NCBI GenBank assembly: GCA_016196035.1
Contig: JACPYM010000104.1
Location: forward strand, 36,852-100,851
Direction of reading: 5' to 3'
DNA from: Acidobacteriota bacterium
Lineage (GTDB): Bacteria; Acidobacteriota; Blastocatellia; RBC074
DNA length: 64,000 nt
Numbering within the stretch: position 1 is the stretch's first letter; the number at the start of each line of letters is the position of its first letter. The notes under the pieces were generated by a model. The model saw nothing but the letters and a program-made list of their open reading frames with translations, searched no databases and was not told the origin of the DNA. The translations under genes and the position numbers were made by a program. This document shows, in pieces, positions 42,018 to 44,910 of this stretch.

Positions 42018-42033
42018 CGGCAATCGCTTGCCG
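42018..42033. other. Hairpin 15 bases beyond the template repeat
   Basis: CGGCAA and TTGCCG form a perfect 6-bp stem with a 4-base loop (GCGA on the coding strand, a GNRA-type loop). It lies just past the 3' end of the template repeat in the DGR. It may shape the end of the template RNA; no function is proven. Confidence 0.5.
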
Positions 42034-42048
42034 CAACTCTGACGGTCA

Positions 42049-42177
42049 GGAGTACTCGAACCGGACACAACACGAAAGCCGATAAAGAGGCCGCGGTTGC
42101 CGGGCGTATTATTGTTACGATTGGCCGAGCGGCAGTTCCTTGAATTGTTGTTCCAGGAACCGCCGCGCAGCACCCGG
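42049..42177 (-). repeat. DGR template repeat (TR)
   Basis: 129 bases that align without gaps to the variable repeat at 43676-43804, with 14 differences. It is the donor copy: RNA from it is reverse-transcribed with errors at adenines and pasted into the variable repeat. On the coding strand it carries nine AAC/AAT codons, which give Tyr, Val, Leu, Phe, Asn or Asp at the target. It begins 18 bases after the reverse transcriptase stop and even keeps a stop codon at the place matching the target gene end. It is not itself translated as far as can be seen. Confidence 0.95.
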
Positions 42178-42193
42178 CGGTGGCGTCACCCGC

Positions 42194-42226
42194 TTTCAGC
42201 TCCTCGCAAAAGCGAGAGTGCTGAAA
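42194..42226. other. Stem-loop at the end of the reverse transcriptase gene
   Basis: TTTCAGC (42194-42200) pairs with GCTGAAA (42220-42226), and inside them CTCGC pairs with GCGAG around an AAAA loop. It overlaps the stop codon and lies between the reverse transcriptase gene and the template repeat. It could be a processing or structural element of the template RNA, or a weak terminator without a T-run. Confidence 0.45.
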
Positions 42227-43254
42227 ACCTGTCGGCGCAACTGCCACGTATCGCCGTGGGCCAGATGCGCGTTCCAACTTTGCAATGATTGCTTGATCTC
42301 ATCCCAGCCAGCCAGTCTGTCACGATAAGCCGCCCGCCAGCGGTGAAAGCGCAGTCGCGCGCGTTGCAGGTTCGAGTTACGCACGCGCAGGCGGTCGGGC
42401 AAAACGCGAAAGCCAACAAAGCTGACGCCGTGGCGCGTCTCGAACAACTGACTTTTGATGGGGTGAATCTGCAAGCGCAACCCGGCCAGATAATCTTCAA
42501 TGCGTTGGCGCCCTTCGGCCAGTGCCGCGTGGTCAGCGCCAAACAACGCGAAATCATCCACGTAACGCACGTACTGACGCACGCCCAATTGCTCCCGGAC
42601 GAAGTGATCCAATCCGTTCAAGTAAACGTTGGCAAAAAACTGGCTGGTCAAATTGCCAATGGGCAACCCGCGCCGCCGCGTGTGCGGCGTGAATAAATCG
42701 TCGCCGGGAAAATAACTGAGGGCTTCATCCTGTGGGTTGCTGGCGTCAATGATCGTCTCGATCAGCCAGAGCGTCGCGGCGCATTTCAGCTTGCGCCGGA
42801 TGACCTCTTTCAAAATGGCGTGGTCAATGCTGGGGAAGTATTGGCGGATGTCGCATTGCAGCACGTAGCGGTTGTTGCGTGCGTATTGCGTGAACCGCCG
42901 CAACGCGCGATGTGTGCCGTAACCGACCCGATTGGCATGCGAAGCCCCCAGAAACGTGCGCTCAAAAAGCGGCGCGATCACATTGCACAACGCGTGATGC
43001 ACAACACGGTCACGATAAGGCGCGGCAGAAATCATCCGCTGCTTTGGCTCGACAATCTGAAACGTCGTGTAAGGGCCGGGGCGGTAAGTCTGGCTTTCAA
43101 GCTCAGCCTGTAATTGCAACAGTTCTTCGGCCAGCCGCGCGTTAAAGCGCAGCACGTTCGGTTGATAACGTTTGCCGCGTTGCGCCTGTTGCGCCGCCGC
43201 CAGCAGGTTGTTGAAATCAATCACCTGCGGCCACAGGTTGCCGTGTCGTTTCAT
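42196..43254 (-). CDS. DGR reverse transcriptase
   Basis: A 352-residue reverse transcriptase that makes mutagenised cDNA from the template repeat. Conserved blocks: CDIRQYFPSIDH near residue 135 (first catalytic Asp), GLPIGNLTSQFFANVYLNGL at 196-215, and YVRYVDDFALFG at 228-239 (catalytic YVDD). GLPIGNLTSQ with the (I/V/L)GxxxSQ form is the motif-4 hallmark of DGR enzymes, where group II intron enzymes have QGxxxSP. There is no maturase or endonuclease domain. The start is the ATG of MKRHGNLWPQ; it overlaps the avd gene by 38 bases, so the two are probably translated in a coupled way. Confidence 0.93.
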   Translation of the reverse strand: MKRHGNLWPQVIDFNNLLAAAQQAQRGKRYQPNVLRFNARLAEELLQLQAELESQTYRPGPYTTFQIVEPKQRMISAAPYRDRVVHHALCNVIAPLFERTFLGASHANRVGYGTHRALRRFTQYARNNRYVLQCDIRQYFPSIDHAILKEVIRRKLKCAATLWLIETIIDASNPQDEALSYFPGDDLFTPHTRRRGLPIGNLTSQFFANVYLNGLDHFVREQLGVRQYVRYVDDFALFGADHAALAEGRQRIEDYLAGLRLQIHPIKSQLFETRHGVSFVGFRVLPDRLRVRNSNLQRARLRFHRWRAAYRDRLAGWDEIKQSLQSWNAHLAHGDTWQLRRQVFSTLAFARS

Positions 43255-43603
43255 GATGTTGTTGTTTGATCCAACTGCCCAGACTTTGACCGACCGTGTT
43301 GACGAGTTTTGAGAGATGTTGATATTGCCCGCCGTCAATCAGCTTGAATGACAATAGCAAGCGGGCCTGTTGCCGCAAGAGTTCAAGGCGCAAATTGCTT
43401 GCCTCGAGTTGCGCCAGTTTCTGTTTGGCATACCGCGCCCGAATCAACTCTTCCAACAGTTCATACAGACTGTTGATGATGCGTTCGCCCAAAGTGAAGC
43501 GGTGATCGCGCGGTAAACGATTGAGCAAGGGAACGTACCACAAAATCAAATCACGCGTCTGTTCAATGACCGACAATTCGCCCGGCGGTGTTTTTTTATG
43601 CAT
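43217..43603 (-). CDS. avd: DGR accessory variability determinant (Avd)
   Basis: A 128-residue all-helical protein: IEQTRDLILWYVPLLNRLPR, DHRFTLGERIINSLYELLEE, LIRARYAKQKLAQLEASNLR, LLSFKLIDGGQYQHLSKLVN. This matches the four-helix-bundle Avd family (related to 23S rRNA intervening-sequence proteins), which forms a pentamer that binds the DGR reverse transcriptase and template RNA and is needed for mutagenic homing. It lies between target gene and reverse transcriptase, a common DGR arrangement. A run of seven As follows the start codons. Confidence 0.9.
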   Translation of the reverse strand: MHKKTPPGELSVIEQTRDLILWYVPLLNRLPRDHRFTLGERIINSLYELLEELIRARYAKQKLAQLEASNLRLELLRQQARLLLSFKLIDGGQYQHLSKLVNTVGQSLGSWIKQQHHETTRQPVAAGD

Positions 43604-43620
43604 GCGTCAAAAAATTTCAT

Positions 43621-43635
43621 GTGCGCTTCGCGCAC
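43621..43635. other. Hairpin downstream of the variable repeat
   Basis: GTGCGC-TTC-GCGCAC: a perfect 6-bp stem with a 3-base loop (GAA on the coding strand), 40 bases past the end of the variable repeat. DGR targets in some phages and bacteria have a GC-rich cruciform just downstream of the variable repeat that promotes homing. On the minus strand it is followed seven bases later by TTTTTT, so a terminator is the alternative. Confidence 0.55.
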
Positions 43636-43671
43636 AGTGTAAGAGGGTAAAGAGGGTAAAAGTGCAGAGGG

Positions 43672-44910
43672 TTACGGAGTCCTCGAACCGGACACAACAC
43701 GAAAGCCGATAAAGAGGCCGCGGTCGCCGGGCGAATAATTGAAACGAAGGGCCGAGCGGCAGACCCTAGAATAGTAGTACCAGGAACCGCCGCGCAGCAC
43801 CCGGTACGTCCCATTATCTGGCCCCTTTGGGTCAATTTGGTTTCCCGCAACGTAATCGCCATACCAATCGGCGCACCACTCCCACACATTACCGTGCATA
43901 TCATAAAGTCCCCAACGATTGGGCGACTTGCTGCCCACCTCGTGCGTGCCATTACCATTCGGCTTTAGAAAGTCGTCATAATACTTTTGCGCATTCCTAC
44001 CGCTCTTGACCCACTCCTTCAGGCTATCACGTTGAGCCTTGCCACTATTGTCACCATACCAAGCCATCGTCTCCAGATTACCCGCGTAATCACCTGTCGT
44101 CTCTGCCCGCGCCGCATATTCCCATTCAGCCTCTGTCGGCAGGCGATAAGTGAAGCCATCGTTGCGTTGATTCAACTTCTGAATAAATTCCTGCGCTTCT
44201 TCCCAACTGACAAAGTACATCGGCTGTTTCGGCCCGACATTCGAGAGATTGTAATTCGGATTGGCCTTATCCCTTTGCTGTTGCACCGTCGTCTCCATAA
44301 CTGCCTGCCATTGCTGTTGCGTGACTTCAAAACGCCCCAGATAAAAAGGCTGGCTGATGGTCACGCGGTGTTGCGGTTTTTCATCTTTGAATAAATCCGC
44401 TGTCACCTGGCTGTCAATCAGCTTGTTGGCCTTCACAATGCGCTCAATATCCGCGTCCGTCGAACCCCTCATAAAACTACCCGCTGGAAGGTAGACAAAC
44501 TCCATCCCCAGATTGTTCTTGCGAATCGTGCCAGCCGCCGGCGCCGGTGCAGGTGTCGGCGTTGGTGTCGGCGTCGCTGGTGGTAAAGGTGTCGGAGTTG
44601 GAGTTGGTTTGGGACGAAGCAGTTCGGCTCGCCGGGCACGCGCGGCAGAGGCGAATTCGCCATTCGGGTAATCAGCCAGAAACTTATCGAACATCGCCGG
44701 ATCGGCGCTGTTTTTGATCGTGTTCCAGATGGCCTTTTCGATAGAAGGCGTCGGCGCGGGTGTAGGCACCGGCGTTGGCTTGGGTGTCGGGCGTGCCGGA
44801 CGCAGCGTTGGTTTTGGTGTTGGGCGTGGGATCTGCGCACCGGCTGGTGCCAGCCAAATCAGTGAAGCCAGCAAAGAAAACCCCAAAATCAAACGAGCTG
44901 TTGTTTGCAT
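43672..44910 (-). CDS. DGR target: secreted FGE-sulfatase/C-type-lectin-fold variable protein
   Basis: A 412-residue exported protein with signal peptide (ARLILGFSLLASLIWLAPAG), a Pro/Thr-rich linker, a short helical module (MFDKFLADYPNGEFASAARA), a second Pro/Thr linker and an FGE-sulfatase domain from about residue 128 (GMEFVYLPAGSFMRGS, YRLPTEAEWEYAARA, WGLYDMHGNVWEWCADWYGD). The last 43 residues are the variable repeat: VLRGGSWYYYSRVCRSAL, then RFNYSPGDRGLFIGFRVV. In this fold the C-terminal end displays the ligand-binding face, so template-driven changes at Tyr378-380, Val383, Leu388, Phe390, Tyr392, Ser393 and Asp396 would retarget binding. The ligand is unknown. Confidence 0.93.
   Translation of the reverse strand: MQTTARLILGFSLLASLIWLAPAGAQIPRPTPKPTLRPARPTPKPTPVPTPAPTPSIEKAIWNTIKNSADPAMFDKFLADYPNGEFASAARARRAELLRPKPTPTPTPLPPATPTPTPTPAPAPAAGTIRKNNLGMEFVYLPAGSFMRGSTDADIERIVKANKLIDSQVTADLFKDEKPQHRVTISQPFYLGRFEVTQQQWQAVMETTVQQQRDKANPNYNLSNVGPKQPMYFVSWEEAQEFIQKLNQRNDGFTYRLPTEAEWEYAARAETTGDYAGNLETMAWYGDNSGKAQRDSLKEWVKSGRNAQKYYDDFLKPNGNGTHEVGSKSPNRWGLYDMHGNVWEWCADWYGDYVAGNQIDPKGPDNGTYRVLRGGSWYYYSRVCRSALRFNYSPGDRGLFIGFRVVSGSRTP
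43676..43804 (-). repeat. DGR variable repeat (VR) at the 3' end of the target gene
   Basis: 129 bases aligned to the template repeat at 42049-42177. Thirteen differences lie between 43725 and 43779, and every one falls on an adenine of the template coding strand. The template has 24 adenines in all, 21 of them in this block. The one other difference is a T-to-G at the very 3' end (Ser to Arg at residue 410). Ten codons are changed by the thirteen substitutions, one of them silently. Confidence 0.95.

Follow-up and report, generated by a model that had tools for sequence, protein, structure and literature searches.

We asked whether a locus in an Acidobacteriota genome carries a complete diversity-generating retroelement (DGR) and, if so, which genes the element could diversify and how its template could be copied into them. 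The locus lies within a 64,000-nt stretch of contig JACPYM010000104.1 from assembly GCA_016196035.1, and we refer to this whole stretch as the window. All DGR parts lie on the minus strand of the window, namely a target gene with a variable repeat (VR) at its C-terminal end, the accessory gene avd, a reverse transcriptase (RT) gene, and a template repeat (TR). As read from the sequence, these parts, the adenine-centred differences between the repeats, an RT of DGR type, and a covarying RNA fold that starts in the last TR bases make up a complete DGR, which in kind is an ordinary one. We consider it highly probable that the predicted activity of this element is the copying of the TR by the RT and Avd, with errors at adenines, into the neighboring gene for a protein with an FGE-sulfatase/C-type-lectin domain and likely also into a TIR-FGE gene on another contig. 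The original prediction, which had described a complete and intact DGR in an acidobacterial genome, stands with respect to the parts, the TR/VR pattern, the RT, and Avd. An open reading frame (ORF) and repeat check reproduced its coordinates and single orientation for the target, avd, RT, TR, and VR, its placement of a 129-bp TR 18 bases past the RT stop, and its observation that no frame is disrupted in the target, avd, or RT genes.

Of the 14 differences between the TR and VR, 13 fall on adenines of the TR (A to T at ten, A to G at two, and A to C at one), a bias with a hypergeometric P value of 1.4e-10 given 24 adenines in 129 positions. The sole remaining difference in the window is a T to G change at position 124, and apart from this edge base the VR equals the TR at all 105 non-adenine TR sites. 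We computed that the 15 A-containing codons could yield about 3e13 possible proteins and no stop codons. To look at variation in related genomes, we calculated codon entropy for a set of 29 targets consisting of the window target and 28 homologs hand-picked among 120 matches listed of 5,648. VR codons with TR adenines have a mean entropy of 2.87 bits, other VR codons 1.07 bits (p = 7e-6), and the rest of the target domain 1.18 bits. The excess of variation at template adenines that the original prediction had proposed to look for is found in related genomes, although the non-adenine codons 398–400, two of which lack any A here, are equally variable (2.8–3.3 bits).

The RT carries the LPIGNLTSQ and YVDD motifs that had been read from its translation and matches RVT_1 with 70.4 bits. 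Its nearest sequence in the PDB is 8ub7_A, the RT of an Avd complex (180 bits), and the next is a group II RT (71 bits). The avd product matches the bAvd family (PF22296) with 75.4 bits (cutoff 40) and also exceeds the cutoff of the NF033474 Avd model, so that the earlier avd assignment holds; two PDB matches are listed for it, Bbp7 (E = 0.008) and the 8ub7 chain named Avd (E = 0.011). Were the RT instead that of a group II intron, a retron, or a defense system, the repeats would be coincidental or the result of simple duplication, and the RT does match the NCBIfam group II maturase model at 132.8 bits, and PADLOC lists many DRT models. However, the group II score falls far below the cutoff of 300, as does the score of 50.9 bits with the NCBIfam retron RT model (St85 family) below its cutoff of 235, the nearest PDB RT belongs to an Avd complex, avd adjoins the RT gene, and at least one TR/VR pair was found in 26 of 36 scanned loci. 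In a tree of 34 RTs, which is without the clade 5 reference set and whose deep order is unsure because of long branches, the window RT is sister to a second RT of the same genome (99/93) within an acidobacterial group of seven (96/90). This group is nested in a group of 13 with RTs from Calothrix, Thiotrichaceae, Crocinitomicaceae, and others (100/99), and the window RT is apart from five outgroup RTs (99/96). A TR/VR pair was found at 12 of the 13 loci of the window RT's group (the exception is L084). The RT thus clusters with RTs of TR/VR-bearing loci and not with group II introns or retrons, the outcome on which the original prediction had staked its placement. The TR/VR adenine pattern, the match to 8ub7_A, and the tree rule out a group II intron, a retron, or a simple duplication, and we give this explanation practically no chance of being correct. 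RT matches with an E value of 0.001 or better occur in 7 of the 11 genomes of the same family that were searched, with at least 46% identity in six (G000, G001, G002, G003, G007, and G009), and at 1e-40 in 8 of 396 genomes drawn from the phylum, the window genome included.

The predicted target, with its C-terminal VR in an FGE-sulfatase/C-type-lectin fold, was confirmed by an FGE-sulfatase match of 173.5 bits and by Treponema denticola variable protein 1 (2y3c) as its nearest PDB sequence. The VR lies in the C-type-lectin fold; the FGE label refers to the fold only. A putative signal peptide and the proline linkers of the target were judged by eye. A caspase domain (PF00656) is found beside the FGE domain in six of the seven closest homologs among the matches listed (P0002–P0006 and P0008; not P0007), and a family search found no caspase domain in the window target. 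The TIR gene upstream could encode a signaling partner of the target; a DUF4384 match within it (E = 0.015, 15.8 bits) is under the cutoff of 27.

Is this target the only one? The original prediction had described the window element, an account that holds but is incomplete, as we also find a structured RNA by the TR, two additional DGRs, and targets to which no RT is linked. Altogether, the genome contains three DGRs of two lineages with seven VRs. Their RTs are encoded on contigs C104 (that of the window), C91 (70% identical to the window RT), and C33 (49% identical and in a different group of the tree), and six of the seven targets are TIR-NACHT-FGE, TIR-FGE, or kinase-FGE proteins. For three VRs the contig lacks the matching TR, and two of these VRs are found beside TR remnants without an RT. 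The TR on C91 (TR91) differs from its VR, in a kinase-FGE protein, at nine sites, eight of them adenines. The TR on C33 (TR33) has four VRs, each in a TIR-NACHT-FGE protein; two of them adjoin it, and C34 and C84 carry one apiece. All four equal TR33 at 94 of 94 non-adenine sites and are changed at 15 to 19 of its 27 adenines. The window TR (TR104) has a second VR on C7 in a TIR-FGE gene (L054 6726–8039), where among aligned bases only adenines and the edge base differ, the latter showing the same T to G change. FGE genes with more diverged VR-like ends on C116, C35, C64, and C99 (L057, L058, L064, and L094) are probably lapsed targets. Weak Avd matches on C134, C50, C98, C123, C76, and C64 were set aside, there being no RT match on those contigs.

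The VRs on C7, C34, and C84 might have arisen by recent gene duplication rather than by homing from a distant TR, and the flanks are related: the 400 bases upstream of the TR33 VRs are 61–81% identical among targets, and the downstream 70-base flanks of three pairs of TR33 targets are at least 90% identical. Part of the upstream identity is background because unrelated stretches average 62% by the same method. The four TR33 VRs nevertheless match TR33 at every non-adenine site although their upstream flanks differ by 19–39%, and between the C34 VR and the TR-like copy near it 20 of 92 non-adenine sites are different, so that we regard duplication as improbable and favor homing from distant TRs. 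On C34, which has no RT match, avd and a diverged TR-like copy are retained, and C84 has a damaged TR-like copy alone. Diverged TR-like copies (L056 8733–8853, minus strand, from 5′ end, and L066 7410–7506) are located beside targets that now match TR33 rather than these copies. Judged by sequence, the genome has several DGRs with trans targets in conflict-type proteins, as found in clade 5 cellular DGRs.

An alignment of the stretches that follow the TR in 12 DGRs of the window RT's group (Acidobacteriota, Cyanobacteriota, Pseudomonadota, and Bacteroidota) revealed a covarying RNA immediately 3′ of the TR, shared by all 12. Helix P1 pairs the last TR bases with a segment some 45 bases further 3′. 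P2 and P3 are hairpins of nine and seven pairs, respectively, the latter with a GNRA-like loop, and an invariant CAG lies behind P1 in the aligned DGRs. In total, 94.9% of alignment cells are paired versus 71.1% in shuffles (0 of 500 shuffles as high), a measure that favors the window sequence because the structure string was drawn from it. Among the 23 RNA pairs, 19 changed on both sides, the covariation score is 0.71 versus 0.24, and sliding the structure drops pairing to 33–47%. Taken by itself, the window RNA has an ordinary minimum free energy (MFE; z = −1.4); the case for the structure rests on covariation. A search model, R1, recovered in 64 sources of 716 kb the 12 sequences, an unused 13th (L084, E = 6e-23), and one additional weak match (L153, E = 0.5); four sequences unused for R1 retain 22, 23, 23, and 22 of the 23 pairs. 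With strict filters, R1 gave five matches in the 396 phylum genomes, namely on C104 and C91, two in G010, and one in G291, four of which are beside a TR/VR pair and the fifth (G291) against the end of an FGE-like gene. Both G010 loci (L164 6612–6835 and L165 6101–6204) contain a TR/VR pair with 13 of 14 differences at adenines that precedes a target FGE-like by motif; in the second locus a run of N breaks the TR–RNA stretch. At the G291 locus (L166 6516–6616), an FGE-like gene has a VR-like tail and is followed immediately at its 3′ end by the TR-type RNA, an arrangement that looks like a merger of TR and target. R1 finds no match in the C33 lineage of DGRs. A search of Rfam over positions 41000–47000 gave no match at the TR RNA and seven matches at E values up to 1 (six microRNA families and one RRE), all below gathering score and all in inverted repeats at 44961–45194. 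A literature search at title and abstract level found no conserved RNA family of cellular DGRs.

The edge of the VR may also be read by this RNA. In the window RT's group the VR usually has GGACT where the TR differs, and the P1 strand opposite the TR extends by two bases whose complement is GG; in G009b those two RNA bases complement GA, and the G009b VR has GA. The two columns before P1 contain 18 TR/VR differences (18 VRs from 12 DGRs), and the RNA complement agrees with the VR at 17 and with the TR at one. In the BPP-1 phage, nine consecutive VR bases are complementary to the spacer RNA up to base 56 (an A), and the adjoining TR base is 117. These two positions are, we presume, the published priming and start sites. 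We treat VR–RNA complementarity as a sequence-based hypothesis limited to this clade; two loci (L146 and L150) yielded no row in the edge test, which left most adenine sites uncounted as differences and thereby lost the 8-base match of L126. Downstream of the VR, a GC-rich hairpin with a GNA or GNNA loop occurs in 14 of 42 VR flanks, 0 of 28 TR flanks, and 54 of 4,200 random windows, counts in which some rows repeat one locus. The corresponding numbers are 14, 2, and 247 for GCGNAGC and 18, 9, and 587 for any stem of 6 or more. The genome contains seven copies of TGCGCGAAGCGCA, five of them within 150 bases behind FGE genes (C7, C34, C84, C99, and C104; on C99 the same hairpin follows the VR-like end) and the other two on contigs without an FGE match (C11 and C110). 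A hairpin of such type matters in BPP-1, according to the part of the report available (Guo et al. 2011; PMC3240598).

Several observations weigh against a working element whose RNA guides copying. Two extra bases in the C7 VR relative to the TR break the reading frame of its gene, which ends in another frame; these bases sit in an AAC-rich part, where slippage has been proposed (PMC12875486, in the available portion), an explanation that does not fit because it proceeds in steps of three. No RT was found in G010 (an RT search of an assembly that is 96% complete) beside its two TR–RNA–VR loci, and this RT may be lost or missing from the assembly. R1 has no match in BPP-1 or the other phage DGRs searched, including L132 and L167. 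Regarding the edge, in a wider zone the RNA complement agrees with the VR at 28 differences, with the TR at 23, and with neither at 4; the window complementarity is short, with 3% of RNA shuffles matching equally well; the shuffle p is under 0.05 in 9 of 42 rows of the set that formed the idea; complementarity is not seen in 14 of 15 phage or viral DGR rows, the exception being BPP-1, already seen beforehand; and within the clade L073 and L075 break the rule and L124 and L164 follow it in part.

The broken C7 frame and the RT-less loci of this genome and of G010, which belongs to the same family, would suit a DGR that is a silent relic, its TR and VR recording past activity of machinery no longer expressed. 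We consider this unlikely, since all three genes are open, no non-adenine site other than the edge base differs between TR and VR, whereas TR104 and TR91 differ at 14 of 90 such sites, and RNA pairing has been maintained. Another explanation, to which we assign appreciable weight without favoring it, is that the conserved RNA serves only as an RT–Avd binding site, a terminator, or protection of the TR transcript rather than as primer or guide; only a short stretch of it matches the VR edge, and not in all DGRs, and the BPP-1 spacer is reported to recruit the RT–Avd complex as well (available text of PMC12875486). However, the TR bases paired in P1 are its last ones, at which copying would begin, with the invariant CAG following P1, and in BPP-1, as that text describes, the spacer RNA folds and priming occurs from an internal adenine.

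In the mechanism that we propose, the RT with Avd would copy the RNA of the 129-bp TR with errors at adenines, and the cDNA would be written into the 3′ end of the FGE/C-type-lectin target and likely also of the C7 TIR-FGE gene. By analogy with the BPP-1 spacer RNA, P1 and the invariant CAG behind it would bind RT–Avd and prime cDNA synthesis, the GGAGTCC strand, which is complementary to the VR edge GGACTCC and not to the TR edge, would help to pick the VR over the TR, and the hairpin after the VR may aid homing. The varied lectin tips might then act as sensors of foreign molecules in immune-like proteins. The parts look fit to work; their present activity, priming by the RNA, and a sensor role for the targets are what we infer from sequence. 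More generally, the conserved RNA of a large cellular DGR clade, fused to the TR end, might prime error-prone copying and name the target through its P1 strand, whose complementarity to the VR edge and not to the TR edge would distinguish target from template, letting one RT serve scattered RT-less immune-type sensors across the genome, a proposal that we make tentatively and hold to be rather doubtful. To our knowledge, most of what is known about the start of copying in cellular DGRs and the sparing of the template comes from one phage. With its 23 testable pairs and its presence in four phyla, the conserved RNA offers a well-defined element for deletion, exchange, and mapping, and R1 locates TR loci even where an RT is undetected, as in G010. 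In this genome, three gene sets are predicted to scramble, as their function, the binding tips of several sensor-like proteins that it encodes, and one TR may feed such genes on several contigs, a bacterial analog of a shared source of diversity. The conserved folded RNA of the window set would likely start the copying and would give a concrete handle on bacterial mutators.

Table 1. Positions in the window of the DGR parts and adjoining features
Feature	Positions	Strand	Basis or remarks
Target gene, N-terminal hydrophobic segment, proline linkers, and FGE-sulfatase/C-type-lectin domain	43672..44910	-	ORF of 412 aa, VR at C-terminus
VR	43676..43804	-	129 bp
VR 3′ edge GGACTCC	43676..43682	-	Reverse complement of GGAGTCC in the RNA element; TR has GTACTCC
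Hairpin 3′ of VR, TGTGCGC(GAA)GCGCACA	43620..43636	-	Sequence
avd, accessory protein	43217..43603	-	128 aa; NF033474 114.5 bits (cutoff 80)
DGR RT ORF	42196..43338	-	380 aa; part common to relatives begins near Met at 43254
18-base gap after RT stop, before TR	42178..42195	-	Coordinates
TR	42049..42177	-	129 bp, 89% identical to VR
Structured RNA 3′ of TR, helices P1–P3	41953..42055	-	Covariation; model R1 100 bits; shares last 7 TR bases
Predicted further helix P4 of TR RNA	41910..41952	-	MFE fold; helix at similar place in 11/16 sequences
Upstream TIR gene, hydrophobic segment (by eye)	45199..46650	-	PF13676 91.7 bits; weak DUF4384 match

Two further features adjoin the element. A small gene of YgiT/MqsA zinc-finger type at 41640–41903 (TIGR03831, 43 bits) starts where the TR RNA ends 3′, and an inverted repeat at 45087–45194 separates the TIR gene from the target. 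The 21-base arm of this repeat has 338 copies per genome strand (two or fewer mismatches), often paired about 60 bases apart, and by its sequence the repeat is a family resembling miniature inverted-repeat transposable elements, also noticed by eye close to the C34, C84, and C116 loci.

Among known systems, the BPP-1 DGR (AY029185; RT and Avd chains of 8ub7) shares with the window element the RT, Avd, adenine-centred TR/VR differences, a structured RNA 3′ of the TR (PMC12875486, available text), a GC-rich hairpin after the VR, and a VR edge complementary to the spacer RNA. It differs in that its target is the phage tail protein Mtd, its TR precedes the RT gene rather than following it, its RNA is unmatched by R1, and its hairpin has a 4-base GRNA loop (PMC3240598, in the part available) whereas the window loop is the 3-base GAA. 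T. denticola variable protein 1 is likewise a DGR variable protein with an FGE-type lectin fold, but it is the target of a pathogen's DGR. Cyanobacterial DGRs, as described in the accessible part of PMC7517822, also have kinase targets with lectin tips, remote targets, and a related RT, and the Calothrix PCC 7103 locus (L076) has the same RNA family 3′ of its TR; the host phylum and the target set are different. The acidobacterial network is not new in kind because multi-DGR genomes of Thiohalocapsa with RT-less loci and trans activity have been published (Dore et al. 2024; PMC10907252, in the sections available). Compared with the DGRs of Thiohalocapsa PB-PSB1 and other clade 5 DGRs, for which the available sections of Dore et al. 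(2024) do not describe the conserved RNA and its covariation, the window element has an acidobacterial host and a proline-linker target protein with an N-terminal hydrophobic segment.

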